Assembly: GCA_021819085.1 (NCBI GenBank)
Contig: JAKASJ010000010.1
Span: 1-64,000, forward strand
Direction: 5' to 3'
Source of the DNA: Pseudomonadota bacterium
GTDB lineage: Bacteria > Pseudomonadota > Gammaproteobacteria > Acidiferrobacterales > UBA6901
Length of the DNA stretch: 64,000 nucleotides
The number at the start of each line of letters is the position of its first letter. Position 1 is the first letter of the stretch. A model generated the notes under the pieces. It had not been told where the DNA came from, searched no databases, and was given only the letters and a program-made list of their open reading frames with translations. Made by a program: the position numbers and the translations under genes. Shown one piece after another: positions 30,092 to 53,278 of this stretch.

Positions 30092-30850
30092 CTACAGCCC
30101 TGAATCGATTCCAATGCGCACTGTCGGAGCGGCAGCCGCGTGATCGCCGATAATCTTCTCCAGCAGGTCGTACCGGACACAAATATGCTGATTCTCATGG
30201 CTGACGATGTTCCGCCTTCTAAGATCGGCGAGGACGCTCGTCACCGTCTGCCGAGTCGTGCCAGCCATGTTCGCAATTTCCTGGTGCGTCAGAGGAATGG
30301 AGATTTCCACGTCATTGCCGGCAGGCACTCCATGGCGATCGGCCAGATGTTTGATGAGCCACAGGATCCGCGCATTAACATCTCCCGATATGAACCTCGT
30401 CAGCAAGTCTCCGAGCATATTCACTCGCCTGGAAAACATTGTCATGATGTATATCGCGAGCTTGCCGTGATTCTCAAGGTATTCCTGGAAGCGTTCATTC
30501 GCCATCACGAACACCTCGCTGTCATCACTTGCCTGCGCGCTGATGACTCTGCGCGTTCCACGCACCGTGTCGATAAGGCCAAACAACTCCCCGGACACGC
30601 AAAACCGCATGATGATCTCCCGCCCCTCCTCGGATAGCCGGTAGAGCTTTATCCGACCGCGTTGCAAAAAATAGACGTTCTGGTCGGGATCGCTGGCACG
30701 AAAAATGAAATCGCCCCTGCGAAATTTCCGGGGCTGCATGCAGGCGAGCAGATGGTCCAGCTCGTCTGCGGTCAGGCAAGCCGATATCCCACGGGTGGCA
30801 GGTAACCCGTCGCTGGCTTCGCGGTCCCCATTTCGTTCACGGTTAGTCAT
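30092..30850 (-). CDS. Crp/Fnr family transcriptional regulator (paralog 1)
   Basis: This 252-residue regulator has a cyclic-nucleotide-binding fold (residues 27-140, KFRRGDFIFRASDPDQNVYF). The dimer helix is followed by a winged HTH (LTHQEIANMAGTTRQTVTSV at 187-206). There is no N-terminal cysteine cluster as in FNR. The recognition helix has R200-Q201-T202-V203, with Gln where CRP and FNR have Glu. The second regulator at 50448 shares this feature at the same residue numbers. An imperfect repeat (GTGGC-N7-GCCAC at 30862-30878) just upstream of its start may be its operator. The signal sensed cannot be inferred. Confidence 0.85.
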   Translation of the reverse strand: MTNRERNGDREASDGLPATRGISACLTADELDHLLACMQPRKFRRGDFIFRASDPDQNVYFLQRGRIKLYRLSEEGREIIMRFCVSGELFGLIDTVRGTRRVISAQASDDSEVFVMANERFQEYLENHGKLAIYIMTMFSRRVNMLGDLLTRFISGDVNARILWLIKHLADRHGVPAGNDVEISIPLTHQEIANMAGTTRQTVTSVLADLRRRNIVSHENQHICVRYDLLEKIIGDHAAAAPTVRIGIDSGL

Positions 30851-31769
30851 GACAGTTCAAAGTGGCCCTCTGTGCCACAAATACATATTCACCAGTCCAA
30901 ACCATTGTGCCCCTCGCACAAACAGCGGATCGGCCCGGTCCGCGATCCTTCCCTGCCAAATCACCTGAAGACCGGCGATCCGCCAGATCGGCTGGCATCG
31001 GCGGCATGAAGTCCCTGGCCAACGACGTCGCAGAGACATCGCCAGCAGACACCTGCGCGGAATATCACGACACCACATTGCATCAAGACAATCCGCTACC
31101 GGAAAATCGGATACTCCATCACGCCCTGGCGGCAGCCGATACGCAGCTTTGAATAAATAATATTATTTAAGATGCGATGGAATTTTCCCCGTTCCGCCGA
31201 TTCGGCCCGAGCCGATCGGGCTACCGAAAGATCTGTCCTGGAAGACGTTTCTGGCAATTGCAGACATCCTACGTAACTGTGACGCATCCAAGGGAGGCAG
31301 GCAACACGTGGTACTTTACGGCGTCGATCCCGTTTGCAGCAAACCGCCGATGCGGCCGCGCGCCCTGGCGTTGCACCTGCAGGGCAGGTGTCGCTGCGGA
31401 CCATCCTTGCGATGGAACCGCGATGGCCCGCCCTCGCACATTGCGCGCATGTCCCCGACTCCTCATGCCCGCCACACCTGCCGTCGATACCGGACTGCCG
31501 CCCCCTCTGCCGCACATTCTGGTTGACTGCGCCCTATTCCCGCATTGTACAAAGTTTAGATCATAGCCCTCCGATTCAGCGGACGACCTTGCTCAGCGTT
31601 CTATAAAGGCCTTATTTGGCCGTATCAATACAATCACTACGACATGTCGGCCAGCCGACCACCATCCCTTAACATTTTTGTTTCAATCCTGTGACGACGT
31701 TTGCAGTGAGCATCGCATCGATGCGCCCGGGTAACGTGCAGGTCGCTGCGCAAGCAACAAGGAGGACTG
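30851..31769. other. Long intergenic region before the ATP synthase operon
   Basis: About 920 bases without a gene I can support. Overlapping short frames on both strands have no motifs. It contains a 16-bp AT palindrome (31154-31169), a TATAAA element (31602-31607) and CGACATGTCG (31640-31649). The promoter of the atp operon must lie in its right half. Confidence 0.4.
31154..31169. promoter_or_regulatory. 16-bp perfect AT palindrome
   Basis: TAAATAATATTATTTA is a perfect palindrome made only of A and T, in a stretch that is otherwise mostly GC. It lies 300 bases upstream of the Crp/Fnr gene start and 600 upstream of atpI. It could be a regulator or nucleoid-protein site. Confidence 0.35.
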
Positions 31770-32881
<1,112 letters not shown>

Positions 32882-32943
32882 CTTCCGCCTAACTCGTTTC
32901 GCAACGTAATGATTCTGTTCTCCACAGGTTCAAGAGAGGAAAA

Positions 32944-33288
32944 ATGATGACCACAGATATGATGACCACCATTTACGCATATACCGCGCTCGGCATCGGA
33001 ATCATGCTGGCCGCCGCAGGACTTGGATCGGCAATCGGATGGGGACTCATCTGCTCGAAGGCGCTTGAAGGCATAGCCCGGCAGCCCGAGCTGCGCCCGC
33101 TGTTGATGACGAACCTCTTCATCTTCGCAGGCCTGATGGAGTCCTTCCCCTTCATCATGATCGCCTTTGCCATGTGGTTCCTGTACGCGAATCCGGTCAT
33201 CGGCAGCCTGCATTCGGCCCTCATGGCAAGCGCGCCGCATGTTCCCGCAGTCGCCGCTTCGCAAACCCATATCGCAGGAGGCCACTAA
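32944..33288 (+). CDS. atpE: ATP synthase subunit c, long C-terminal tail
   Basis: This is the rotor ring subunit, a helical hairpin with the polar loop [11 protein letters not shown] and the ion-binding carboxylate Glu66 in [12 protein letters not shown]. Ser follows the Glu as in sodium rings. The first-helix position that is Gln in sodium-binding rings is Trp here ([12 protein letters not shown]), so proton coupling is more likely. The protein has 114 residues against the usual 70-90, with a Pro/Ala/His tail after the second helix. The ribosome binding site is GAGGAAAA. The stop overlaps the atpF start (TAATG). Confidence 0.93.
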
Positions 33289-33776
33289 TGCATATCGACA
33301 TTACGCTTCTGGTACAGATCGTCGCCTTCATCGCGTTTGTGCTGTTCGTACGCTGGAAGCTCTGGTCACCGGTGACCAACGTACTCTCCCAGCGTCAGAA
33401 GCGTATTGCTGACAGTCTGGCGGTTGCGGAACGCGGACGGCGCGAGTCAGAGCTGGCCAGCAAACGTGCCCGGGAATTGTTGCGCGACGCCCATAAGCAG
33501 GCGGAAGAGATCATCGCCAAAGCCCAGCTGCAGGCAAGCCGCCTCATTGATGAGGCCAAGGCCACCGCCCGTGAAGAGGGTCAGCGTATCGTGGCTTCAT
33601 CTCGCGCCGAGGTCACACAGATGGTCAATCGCGCCAGACTCGAACTGCAGGGCGAAGTCGCCGACCTCGCAATCGCAGGCGCCAGAAAGATACTCCGCCG
33701 CGAGATCGACATGCAACGTCATGATGACGTTCTGGGAGATCTTCTCGACAACTTCTACAGGAAAACCGGGACATGA
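33288..33776 (+). CDS. atpF: ATP synthase subunit b
   Basis: This peripheral stalk subunit has 162 residues, starting [20 protein letters not shown]. It has one N-terminal membrane helix and a long charged helix ([20 protein letters not shown]...) that dimerises and reaches subunit delta. The start is the ATG overlapping the atpE stop. A longer frame upstream lies inside atpE and is excluded. It overlaps atpH by 4 bases. Confidence 0.95.
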
Positions 33777-34309
33777 CTGAACGTCGCACCATCGCCAGAC
33801 CCTACGCCGCCGCCGCGTTTCAGGTGGCCCGTGATAACGGCCACCTTGATTCCTGGTCCGAAGCCCTGGGTTTCATGGCAGCGGTGTCCAGGGATAAGCG
33901 CATGCACGCAGTGCTGCGCGACCGCACACGGCCTAAATCCGAAATCATTCAACTGTTCATCGAGGTCTGCGGCAGCCGCATCGACGAGAAAAACAGAAAC
34001 TTCATCCGCATCGCCGCAGAGAACGGCCGTCTGCCGCTGCTCCCGGAGATTTACGAGATGTATGAAGAGCTGCGCGCCGAACACGAACGTCGCGTCAATG
34101 CCGAGGTCATTTCGGCATTCCCCCTTTCGGCTGCGCATCGCAACCGCATCGCGACTGTCATGAAAGCGCGTTTCGGAAAGGATCTAAAACTTGAGTGGGG
34201 TACGAACCCGGAACTTCTGGGCGGAATCGTAGTGCGTGCTCATGACATGGTAATAGACGCGTCGGTGAACGGCTGGCTTACCGATATGGCAAACAGCCTG
34301 ACTCAATAA
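33773..34309 (+). CDS. atpH: ATP synthase subunit delta
   Basis: This 178-residue peripheral stalk protein links F1 to subunit b. It shows the family pattern [20 protein letters not shown] at the N terminus and [20 protein letters not shown], then [20 protein letters not shown] near the C terminus. It overlaps atpF by 4 bases and precedes atpA by 12 bases. Confidence 0.95.
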
Positions 34310-49452: not shown

Positions 49453-50367
49453 ATGACAGACAATCCTCTCCACTGGCCTCCGGAAAATCCCTGGACCGCG
49501 GCGCCTGACGACGCGCTGTGGTCGCATCCCGGCTCGAACATCGTGCTGGATTTTCACGGAGATCCGGCACGGGCCGCAGTCACCGTCCTATCAGACGGCA
49601 ACCACCACATGGCACTTGAAGAGGCCCTGCGGGACTTTTCCCGGATGCATCCGGAGATGAACGGCGTCTTCTATCTCACCCTGCCGCCCGGACTCTTGCT
49701 GCAGATCTTCAAACGCGGCGCGGTACGGATCGGAAACCTGCGCCTGCAACTGACTCCCCACGTGCTCATCAGTCCGCCCGGACTGTTCGAATCCCTGGCG
49801 CCATCTGGCCGCCTGTCCGGGCACGCGCCATTCATGCGCAGCCGTGGCAACGTTCTGCTGGTGCGCAAGGGAAATCCGAAAGCGATCCACGATATCGGAT
49901 CGCTGTACGGCGATGACCTGCGACTGTTCATTTCCAACCCGCGTACCGAGACGGCAAGCCACAGTGTCTACCGGGAAACGCTGCTACGGCTGTGCGGGGC
50001 CAGAGGCATGGATGTCGCCGCGATGTCAGACATGCTGGACGGAGTCGACGGGCGCGTTTTCTACGGACAGACGATACATCACCGCGAGGCGCCACAGGCG
50101 CTCGCCTCGGAGCGTGCCGATGCAGCAATTCTCTACTACCATCTCGCGCTACGTTATACGCGCGTCTTTCCGGAGCTTTTTGAAATCGCCGCGCTCGACG
50201 GCGGTGATCCGCAGCCCGCGCCCAGCCCCTGGAACGTAACGAGCCGCTTCCATGCCGGTGTGGTCGGCGACGGAGGTCAATGGGGCGGGGAGCTGCTGCG
50301 GCATCTCATGAGCCCACAGGTTACGGATATTTATCACAGCCACGGACTGCTGCGTCCGGACGAATGA
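49453..50367 (+). CDS. Leaderless ModA-like substrate-binding protein
   Basis: The 304-residue product starts MTDNPLHWPPENPWTAAPDD. Its body resembles the type II periplasmic-binding fold of molybdate/sulfate-binding ModA: RGNVLLVRKGNPKAIHDIGS, LRLFISNPRTETASHSVYRE and ADAAILYYHLALRYTRVFPE. There is no signal peptide or lipobox, so it should stay in the cytoplasm as a sensor or carrier rather than an ABC uptake partner. No ABC permease or ATPase for molybdate is nearby. The similarity is judged by motif pattern only. Confidence 0.6.
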   Translation: MTDNPLHWPPENPWTAAPDDALWSHPGSNIVLDFHGDPARAAVTVLSDGNHHMALEEALRDFSRMHPEMNGVFYLTLPPGLLLQIFKRGAVRIGNLRLQLTPHVLISPPGLFESLAPSGRLSGHAPFMRSRGNVLLVRKGNPKAIHDIGSLYGDDLRLFISNPRTETASHSVYRETLLRLCGARGMDVAAMSDMLDGVDGRVFYGQTIHHREAPQALASERADAAILYYHLALRYTRVFPELFEIAALDGGDPQPAPSPWNVTSRFHAGVVGDGGQWGGELLRHLMSPQVTDIYHSHGLLRPDE

Positions 50368-50447: not shown

Positions 50448-51164
50448 TCAGGAGCTGCGTGAATGCCCGTTCAGCAGTTCCTGGCTGCGGATGCGGATGC
50501 GGTGATTCTCAATACTGAGCAGGCCACGGAGCTTCAGCTCGCTCAGCACCTTGGTGACCGTCTGGCGGGCGGTGCCGACCATGTCGGCAATCTCCTGATG
50601 GGTCATGCGGATATTGAGATGAACTTCATTGCCAACTCGGGTTCCGTGACAAGCACTGAGCCGCAGCATCAGCTTGACGATTCGGCTATTTACGTCGTCG
50701 TCGATCAGGTTCACCAGCATGTCACCCAGCACGCGCATGCGGCACGCAAGTGCCTGCATAATGACGAAGGACGCCGCGCTGTGGGTCTCGAGATAATCCT
50801 TGAACTGTGAGCGCGCGATGCACAGGACCTCGGCCCGCTCACAGGTCTGCGCGTTCACGGCCCGGCCTGCGCCATGAACGACCTCGGTCAGCCCGAAAAT
50901 CTCCCCAGGGAAGCAGAACCACAGAATCACTTCTCTCCCCAGCGTCGAATTCTGATAGATCTTGACTCTTCCGGCGCGCAGGAAATAGACATTCATGCCC
51001 GGATCCCCTGCACGGTAGATGAACTCGCCCTTCTCGTATTTGCGTACCGTGCCGATGGCCAGCAGGTCGGAGAACTCGTTCGGACTGATCTTGGAAAAAA
51101 TATCGGACGGCGCCGTAAATACGGGATCGGTGGTGGCGCATGGCGAATCAAAGCCTTCGAACAT
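50448..51164 (-). CDS. Crp/Fnr family transcriptional regulator (paralog 2)
   Basis: This 238-residue regulator has an effector-binding beta roll at 20-130 (RKYEKGEFIYRAGDPGMNVY) and a winged HTH, MTHQEIADMVGTARQTVTKV, at 187-206. Arg200-Gln201-Thr202-Val203 form the start of the recognition helix. It lacks an FNR cysteine cluster. An 18-bp palindrome (51223-51240) overlaps the probable -35 region of its own promoter, and a matching one lies before the divergent transporter gene. It probably controls both. The effector is unknown; a small diatomic gas or a nucleotide are the usual options in this family. Confidence 0.87.
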   Translation of the reverse strand: MFEGFDSPCATTDPVFTAPSDIFSKISPNEFSDLLAIGTVRKYEKGEFIYRAGDPGMNVYFLRAGRVKIYQNSTLGREVILWFCFPGEIFGLTEVVHGAGRAVNAQTCERAEVLCIARSQFKDYLETHSAASFVIMQALACRMRVLGDMLVNLIDDDVNSRIVKLMLRLSACHGTRVGNEVHLNIRMTHQEIADMVGTARQTVTKVLSELKLRGLLSIENHRIRIRSQELLNGHSRSS

Positions 51165-51210: not shown

Positions 51211-51216
51211 ATTCTA
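51211..51216 (-). promoter_or_regulatory. Probable -10 element of the Crp/Fnr gene
   Basis: TAGAAT on the minus strand lies about 47 bases upstream of the Crp/Fnr ATG and 6 bases downstream of the palindrome at 51223-51240. With this -10, the palindrome covers the -35 region, which favours autorepression. Confidence 0.4.
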
Positions 51217-51222
51217 CAAAAA

Positions 51223-51240
51223 ATGTCGCCTGCGTGACAT
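51223..51240. promoter_or_regulatory. Crp/Fnr-type operator, copy A
   Basis: ATGTC-GCCTGCGT-GACAT is an 18-bp palindrome with 5-base perfect arms (6 counting the flanking A/T) and an 8-base centre. It is centred about 67 bases upstream of the regulator's ATG. The same arms and spacing occur in copy B before the transporter. Confidence 0.6.
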
Positions 51241-51241
51241 T

Positions 51242-51692
51242 CGGCAGCGGCACCGCTCATCCGATACCATTTAAATATATCCCGCATCGAAAATGTCTCT
51301 AAGTTTCAAGGATCTACGGCCCACATCGCTATCCGGTGCGGCATTGCAGACACCGGCCAGTATCCGCGATCCTCGCCGCACGGCTTGAACTGGCGCGCCA
51401 CGGAATCAAGCGGTTACGATCACGCATGGGTATCTTTCGCGATGTCGCAACACAGCTACCCATCTGCGATACAACATCAATGGCCGCAATAGCAAAATAT
51501 TCCTATTCAAAAAAATTGGCTGGATGGTGCCTCACCCCTTCCGTCTCTGCACCCCGCCCGAAGCGACCTCAGCTACCGGCCGGACCATGCCGACCGGCCT
51601 TGCAGATCGCTCAGCCCGCTTCCACCTGTGATGCGGTGCGGGGCTGCACAAAGGCTCGGGTACCACAGGACTCGATCAACAAAAATGATTTG
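51242..51692. other. Divergent intergenic region between regulator and transporter
   Basis: About 450 bases with no supported gene, lying between the two operator copies. Several AT-rich patches (for example near 51265 and 51500) could hold promoter elements. A short plus-strand frame from 51336 shows no family features. Confidence 0.4.
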
Positions 51693-51710
51693 ATGTCACG
51701 CCTGTGACAT
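51693..51710. promoter_or_regulatory. Crp/Fnr-type operator, copy B
   Basis: ATGTC-ACGCCTGT-GACAT has arms that extend to 7 perfect bases (ATGTCAC/GTGACAT) around GCCT. A TATTCT at 51731-51736 is a plausible -10. With transcription starting about 7 bases after it, the palindrome is centred near -41.5, the usual place for activation by Crp/Fnr proteins. The ATG of the transporter is 107 bases downstream. Confidence 0.6.
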
Positions 51711-51817
51711 ACCACGTTCCAATCTTTATGTATTCTCATTCGAGATCCTGATGTGGGTATAGGATAGGTCGTTCGGCGCAATCCATCGATGTCACACTCT
51801 AGATTCAGGAGCCCAGA

Positions 51818-53278
51818 ATGGAAACTGCAGCAGCCAATATCACGCCACCGGCGGCCGAGGCCGCCGCATCCGGCACCAGGACAAGACAGGTCGCGGGGCT
51901 GGCCATCGCCTTTGCGGTCCTGTTCGGATTGCATCTCGGACCAAGGATACCCGGCTTGAATCCCGAAGGTCAGACGGTGCTGGGCGTGTTTCTGTGGTTC
52001 ATCGTATGCATGGTCAGCGGTGCCCTGCCGAAAGCAGTCGTCGGCCTGGCCTCTCCGCTGCTGCTGGTGGTGTTCGCCCATACCAAGGTCCCGGTCGCTT
52101 TCAAGGCCTTCAACACGGACATTTTTTTTCTCGCCGCCGGCGCGTTCACCATAGCCGCGGTCATGATGGGAACTCCACTCGGCAGAAGGGTCACGTGTAC
52201 GGTGGCGTCCACGATGAGATCGAACCGGGTCACCCGGGTTCTGCTCGGGCTCATGCTCGCCGAAGTGGCCACACAGCCCTTTCTGCCGGTCGTCAACGAA
52301 AGCGCCTTGTTCCTGCCCATGTGCAAGGGCATCTCGTCTTTCACGGAGGGAAAGGAGCACCTGCCCGAGGTAAAGAGGATAAACACCGCAGTGCTGTATC
52401 TGATAGCGGGTCTTGTCCCTCTGTTCATCGGCCCACTGATGCTGACGAGTGCCTTTCCCAATTTGATACTTACCGCATATCTCAAGACCACTCAGCATAT
52501 AAACATTTCGTGGGCTCACTGGTTCTGGCTCAATCTTCCTTTGTGGGGGTTGCTGCCAATCCTGTACATCTATGTGATCCGCTACTTCAAGCTGCAACAC
52601 CTGGACATACCCGGCCTCGAGGCGGGCATGGCAGCCATGAAGAAGGAGCTCGGCACCATCACATGGCCCGAAATGTGGACATTGATATGCCTCGCCATCG
52701 GAATGACCCTGTGGATCACGGGCTGGCTTAAACCCGGCATGACGGCTCTGCTGGCCGCATCGCTGATGTTCGTGCCATGGAGCGGCATCAAATACGACAA
52801 CATCAGCAAGTACATGCTCTGGGATGTGTTAATGCTGCTGGGCGGAGCGATTTCCCTCGGCACGGCGCTTTATGCTGCAGGAACTGTCACCTGGCTGGCA
52901 CACGGAGTGGTCAGCCCTTTCAAAGACACCGGCCTGCCGATCCTGGCGGTGCTGTTCCTGCTGGTATTCAGCTTCCACATACCACGCGCCGGAATCGTCA
53001 GCGCCGTCGCGGCGGGCGCAGCATTCGTACCGCTGGCCGTCGGGCTGGCCAAGGTGCTTCACGTCCATGTACTGCCATTCTCGCTGATCATCATCAATTG
53101 CATGCAATACGCATTCTTCCTGCCGATCTCCATTACAGCATTTCTGATTGCATGGAGTGCATCAGGAACTTCCGGTTGGGAGGCAGTCAAATTCGGCACA
53201 CCGCTGACGATCATCGCCAATGCCTACGTGCTTCTGGTGCAGCCGGTTTGGCTGAAGATGATCGGATTTCCGCTGTAG
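51818..53278 (+). CDS. DASS/SLC13-family sodium- or proton-coupled anion transporter
   Basis: The 486-residue inner-membrane protein has about 12 hydrophobic segments. Family blocks include AVVGLASPLLLVVFAHTKVP and FNTDIFFLAAGAFTIAAVMM. The first substrate motif region is FLPVVNESALFLPMCKGISS and the second ISITAFLIAWSASGTSGWEA, where DASS proteins place their S-N-T clamps. Members carry dicarboxylates, citrate or sulfate. The SNT triplets are modified here (VNES, SASGTS), so the substrate may be unusual. It lies 52 bases before the PHP-type hydrolase gene. Confidence 0.8.
   Translation: METAAANITPPAAEAAASGTRTRQVAGLAIAFAVLFGLHLGPRIPGLNPEGQTVLGVFLWFIVCMVSGALPKAVVGLASPLLLVVFAHTKVPVAFKAFNTDIFFLAAGAFTIAAVMMGTPLGRRVTCTVASTMRSNRVTRVLLGLMLAEVATQPFLPVVNESALFLPMCKGISSFTEGKEHLPEVKRINTAVLYLIAGLVPLFIGPLMLTSAFPNLILTAYLKTTQHINISWAHWFWLNLPLWGLLPILYIYVIRYFKLQHLDIPGLEAGMAAMKKELGTITWPEMWTLICLAIGMTLWITGWLKPGMTALLAASLMFVPWSGIKYDNISKYMLWDVLMLLGGAISLGTALYAAGTVTWLAHGVVSPFKDTGLPILAVLFLLVFSFHIPRAGIVSAVAAGAAFVPLAVGLAKVLHVHVLPFSLIIINCMQYAFFLPISITAFLIAWSASGTSGWEAVKFGTPLTIIANAYVLLVQPVWLKMIGFPL

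Follow-up and report, generated by a model that had tools for sequence, protein, structure and literature searches.

Two matched 18-bp palindromes, ATGTCGCCTGCGTGACAT at 51223-51240 and ATGTCACGCCTGTGACAT at 51693-51710, lie in the 653-bp intergenic region between a Crp/Fnr-family regulator gene and a divergent DASS transporter gene in the window (the whole 64-kb stretch of DNA that was analysed). This arrangement raises the question of which protein reads the two sites, and with what effect on the two promoters. The features of the locus are as follows.

49453-50367, plus strand: SBP_bac_11/CysP-like solute-binding protein, convergent with the regulator gene (start codon inferred)
50448-51164, minus strand: Crp/Fnr-family regulator, 238 aa, with a cNMP-binding fold and HTH
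51211-51216, minus strand: predicted regulator -10, TAGAAT (consensus match only)
51223-51240, unstranded: predicted operator 1 (ATGTC-N8-GACAT), over the predicted -35 and 59-76 bp before the regulator start codon
51235-51240, minus strand: predicted regulator -35, ATGTCA, inside operator 1 (consensus match only)
51693-51710, unstranded: predicted operator 2 (ATGTC-N8-GACAT); its centre is at about -41.5 relative to the predicted transporter promoter
51731-51736, plus strand: predicted transporter-operon -10, TATTCT (consensus match, kept among species of the genus)
51818-53278, plus strand: DASS-family anion transporter, 486 aa
53331-55718, plus strand: DUF3604/CehA-McbA-like protein, 795 aa, with a PHP-type DLHVHS motif

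The palindromes, reported in a first-pass annotation as having identical arms and spacing, were found at exactly those coordinates, and they are the only two exact copies of ATGTC-N8-GACAT in the window. Shuffled windows held 0.09 exact matches on average, with at least two matches in two of 100 shuffles. Genome-wide pattern searches, with the reversed pattern as control, returned six exact matches versus one for the control in the 3.42-Mb genome, while the looser form TGTC-N8-GACA was in modest excess (38 copies versus 24). At the genome density of the looser form (38 copies), two of them falling within the 653-bp intergenic region has a probability of ~2.6e-5.

Both sites recur in three genomes of the same genus, whose regulators are 84-96% identical: the regulator-side site stands at -67.5 from the start codon in all four species of the genus (with one arm mismatch in G002), and the transporter-side site 114-123 bp before the transporter start. 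In the genus alignment of site 2, the TGTC and GACA arms are invariant and the 8-bp core has diverged, and the 20 bp from the right arm to the -10 (TATTCT or TATCCT) is kept. Invariant arms around a changed core are the footprint that would be expected of a dimeric protein.

In GTDB genomes, scanned to look beyond the genus, 80 related regulators were found, and 41 non-redundant loci with a DUF3604 gene nearby (>55% identity) formed the linked set, in which 450 bp upstream of the regulator was searched. TGTC-N8-GACA was present in 31 of the 41 and ranked first when 3,328 palindromic designs were compared (every 4-mer with spacers of 2-14; mean 0.35), the second-ranked design being a shifted reading of the same sites. 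Eight of the ten loci that had no exact match carry a one-mismatch site, most often AGTCAGCCAGCCGACA, and at some loci a site with one or two mismatches is the only one. The site consensus outside the genus is TGTCRGCCAGCYGACA. Several of the compared genomes are draft metagenome bins, and four unlinked regulators with the site (L089, L099, L105 and L111) lie on contigs that end within ~1.3 kb upstream, where linkage is not judgeable. Thus absence of the motif upstream of orthologs, which the first-pass annotation had offered as grounds for dropping the idea, was not observed: the motif occurs at nearly all DUF3604-linked orthologs in beta- and gammaproteobacteria. A separate, putatively autoregulatory second site was seen in this genus only; elsewhere a single site serves the divergent region.

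Four genomes (G019, G041, G043 and G051) keep the DASS-DUF3604 operon at 70-73% identity (loci L178, L179, L180 and L181) and have no regulator ortholog, the best hits being ~27% or weaker. These operon loci contain no exact TGTC-N8-GACA. Thus the motif tracks the regulator and not the operon. The lack of both the regulator and exact operators suggests that the control circuit has been lost or replaced at these four loci. The earlier claim that the palindromes are the regulator's own operators is largely supported by this conservation and joint loss, as far as sequence comparison can carry it.

The promoter geometry bears on the direction of regulation; promoter elements are consensus matches throughout. 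Operator 2 is centred at 51701.5 and TATTCT lies 20 bp beyond the palindrome, which gives a predicted start at ~51743 and a centre at ~-41.5, in agreement with the position proposed earlier. A sigma-70-like scan of the window found no -35 match upstream of this -10. On the regulator side, the nearest match in the scan has its -35, ATGTCA (51240-51235), within the first palindrome and its -10, TAGAAT, at 51216-51211, which bears out the annotation's placing of that palindrome over the regulator's likely -35. A -10-like hexamer was then scored at every offset from the palindrome centre across 33-40 loci. On the transporter side it peaked at 29.5-30.5 bp (z ~4.5, 40 sites), a peak matched by none of 20,000 random shifts (P<5e-5; 33 non-redundant loci), while no comparable peak appeared on the regulator side in the same scan. 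With the hexamer beginning 29.5 bp away from its centre, the palindrome would stand at -41.5, where CRP and FNR bind as class II activators. Therefore, given the conserved -10 spacing, the absence of a transporter -35 and the -35 within palindrome 1, activation of the operon together with repression of the regulator's own gene is the best reading. The proposed activation of the transporter is supported by the conserved spacing. Self-repression is plausible, in that operator 1 over the regulator's own -35 fits it, and stands on weaker ground since a separate regulator-side site is confined to the genus.

What kind of protein would read such sites is suggested by the recognition helix, RQTVTKV, which does begin with Arg-Gln-Thr-Val as had been noted, at R200 (R200-Q201-T-V). 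All 42 DUF3604-linked regulators that could be scored share R200-Q201, while Nitrospira-type homologs have RE instead of RQ, show no DUF3604 linkage and almost always miss the motif. In this family, residues 180 and 181 are tied to the bases read, and Gln at 181 goes with altered motifs (PMC1274295). The CooA operator of Desulfovibrio is TGTCGGCnnGCCGACA, with sites TGTCGGCTAGCCGACA and TGTCaGCcAGCCGACA (PMC545781), and that of M. tuberculosis Cmr, established by gel shift, is TGTCAGCGTGCTGACA; Cmr is moreover an autoregulator and activates a divergent gene (PMC5499769). TGTC-N8-GACA is thus a known CooA/Cmr-type code and not a new one, and the match to it is predicted from the RQTV helix. The annotation correctly set the motif apart from CRP and FNR sites, but missed the match of motif and RQT helix to CooA. 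The likeness to CooA extends to the Desulfovibrio operator, which matches the consensus upstream of the Thiobacillus and Sulfuritalea orthologs, and to the R-Q-T start of the helix, with Gln at the position of CRP Glu181. Cmr, compared by operator only, shares the arms and spacing and provides a precedent for autoregulation combined with divergent activation, but it belongs to another organism, has other targets and senses nitrosative and oxidative stress via two cysteines.

The regulator is placed in the Crp/Fnr superfamily by PF00027, PF13545 and PF00325, all above cut-off, yet falls below every NCBIfam equivalog cut-off: it scores 75 bits against CRP (cut-off 266), 57 against FNR (228) and 84 against NtcA (245). 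The nearest folds to its predicted structure are MtbCRP (Rv3676) and GlxR, also the nearest solved structures by sequence (27% identity); unlike what is proposed here, both are cAMP-binding regulators, and the MtbCRP helix reads RETV. With E. coli CRP the regulator shares the fold and the class II activation geometry. On the other hand, CRP has an RETV helix and TGTGA sites, and in the linked regulators Arg82 is kept but Ser83 is replaced and the Glu72 position (92) is Leu, Met, Ile or Val wherever scorable, on which ground identity with cAMP-CRP was rejected. Unlike FNR, the regulator has no N-terminal [4Fe-4S] cysteine cluster, only a single non-conserved Cys9 near the N-terminus. A W82-F83-C84 motif is invariant in the DUF3604-linked regulators and Cys108 occurs in 38 of 43, so that a thiol/redox or small-ligand signal is possible, which is speculation. 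As judged from sequence, the regulator falls into an unnamed family whose members share an invariant WFC motif and, in sulfur oxidisers, go together with DUF3604 and a transporter that can be swapped.

Four other explanations were weighed. That the palindromes are chance matches or a non-regulatory repeat is in keeping with the two shuffled windows that also held such a pair, but cross-genus conservation, the first rank in an unbiased palindrome search and loss together with the regulator leave this reading effectively refuted by the conservation data. Identity of the regulator with CooA proper, which senses CO by heme, is very improbable despite the shared operator and helix start. Comparison with CooA, itself checked against PDB 1ft9, showed that: i) the two proteins are 18% identical; ii) the regulator has no Cys or His at the Cys75 and His77 positions (Gly91/Leu92/Thr93 region) and no CooA-like Pro2 start; iii) the segment equivalent to CRP residues 72-82 is retained in the regulator and gapped in CooA, whose heme binding requires its absence (PMC12937710). 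Furthermore, the neighbourhoods examined hold no coo, CO dehydrogenase or hydrogenase genes, the neighbours being DASS, DUF3604 and SBP genes. CooA identity was rejected on the residues, with heme ligand counterparts missing and the segment retained.

The remaining two concern who binds and to what effect. The sites could be bound mainly by a paralogous Crp/Fnr protein (30092-30850) or another Crp/Fnr of the cell: the RQTV helix is identical in the paralog, which has a CooA-like site of its own nearby, TGTCGGCCAGCCGACC, at 31645. This is improbable, since the paralog was found in only two of 60 genomes (G000 and G004) while the sites are kept in G002, G003 and many others that have no paralog, and since no exact site is left in genomes that lack the adjacent regulator. 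Repression of both divergent promoters, with operator 2 not being an activator site, would suit Crp/Fnr proteins, which can repress, and the closeness of the sites to both promoters, but we consider it unlikely because the conserved 29.5-30.5 bp to the -10 and the lack of a transporter -35 form a class II activator pattern. The reading that we prefer, and that is very probably correct on the sequence evidence, is that both palindromes are operators of the adjacent regulator, which would activate the DASS-DUF3604 operon in class II fashion and repress its own gene.

The surroundings of the paralog were also recorded. Near the paralogous gene, the CooA-like site ATGTCGGCCAGCCGACC (31645-31660) precedes an F-type ATP synthase operon. 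G004 likewise has both site and paralog. For G001-G003, the search recovered atp operons in which the CooA-like site is missing. The genome has two F-type ATP synthase operons (window 31700-34309 and G000:C52:60914-62363), of which that in the window is diverged, with 67-69% DNA identity to the housekeeping copy of the genus. G004 also has a second ATP synthase copy with the paralogous regulator.

The strong versions of the motif (TGTCRNCNNGNYGACA) number 0-3 per genome in nine genomes versus 0 for the control; seven of the nine have one beside the regulator, and most others examined lie in or beside unrelated genes. Random scatter through the genome, a possibility raised in the first-pass annotation, is therefore not the pattern seen. 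Elsewhere in the genome, inspection covered the other four exact copies of ATGTC-N8-GACAT and a strong TGTCA-N6-TGACA site: two of them are intergenic, and of the other three one falls within the tolB-pal region, one overlaps the point where a pilM-like gene begins and one precedes clpS-clpA. They form no coherent set and chance is their simplest reading, on which a wider regulon was rejected. Thus, with strong sites few and the other exact sites incoherent, the regulon appears local. The modest excess of the looser form over its control is compatible with a weak wider regulon as well as with none, and a 3-mismatch genome scan gave as many matches as the control.

The controlled module has a constant and a variable part. 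DUF3604 is the constant partner of the regulator, its columns being 81% identical on average across 12 diverse members; its predicted structure (pLDDT 59.8) was too low in confidence for a structure search. The transporter slot holds one DASS lineage (71-97% identity), a distant DASS (27-32%) or none, and at some loci TctA/TctC or a TauE-like protein is nearby (varying transporters at L055:2412-3317, L112:4020-7199 and L115:8927-12044), as if different carriers supplied one substrate. The SBP_bac_11/CysP-like protein recurs beside the cluster in many genomes; the copy in the window (49453-50367) has no obvious signal peptide. In Thiobacillus-type clusters a conserved protein of ~195 aa with an apparent signal peptide adjoins the DASS gene (L090:7181-7780, L092:7229-7813, L100:7182-7766 and L081:9777-10328). 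It has no Pfam match, one member also has none in NCBIfam, and it is possibly an extracytoplasmic sensor or binding protein. The hosts include Thiobacillus, Sulfuritalea, Acidiferrobacteraceae and Thiohalocapsa, and a role of the module in sulfur-oxidiser physiology is likely from this distribution; nearly every member of the window's order has dsrA and aprA, so their co-occurrence does not discriminate. In the literature searched, no description of DUF3604 function or of the regulator was found.

From the computed sites, together with how they are conserved, how they track the regulator and how they are spaced (-41.5), we infer binding by the regulator, the direction of regulation and the nature of the effector as follows. 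A dimer of the regulator would use the RQTV recognition helix to read the TGTC/GACA half-sites, in the manner of CooA and Cmr. Placed at operator 2 (-41.5), it would act as class II activator of the DASS-DUF3604 operon, whose promoter has a -10 and no recognisable -35, and at operator 1, over its own -35, it would repress the regulator gene. The regulon would be small and local, a single transport-and-hydrolysis module in sulfur-oxidising beta- and gammaproteobacteria. The effector is probably neither cAMP nor heme-bound CO; a small anion, or a thiol/redox signal at the invariant Cys84, is possible instead.

Thus a sequence curiosity has become a testable regulator-operator pair, one that recurs in many sulfur oxidisers, whether cultured or not, Thiobacillus thioparus DSM 505 among them. 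The regulator would add a further natural example of the residue-181 rule in Crp/Fnr proteins, by which Gln accompanies TGTC arms. The pair also offers a handle on the uncharacterised DUF3604 and transporter module, in that the inducer could reveal the substrate. More tentatively, and with rather less than even expectation, we propose that the regulator represents an undescribed heme-free Crp/Fnr subfamily (WFC, Cys84, RQ helix and CooA-type operator). In sulfur-oxidising beta- and gammaproteobacteria it would sense a thiol/redox or sulfur-anion signal and control a dedicated DUF3604 hydrolase along with an anion transporter that is exchangeable. If this is true, the heme-free subfamily would be a new piece of sulfur-lithotroph physiology.
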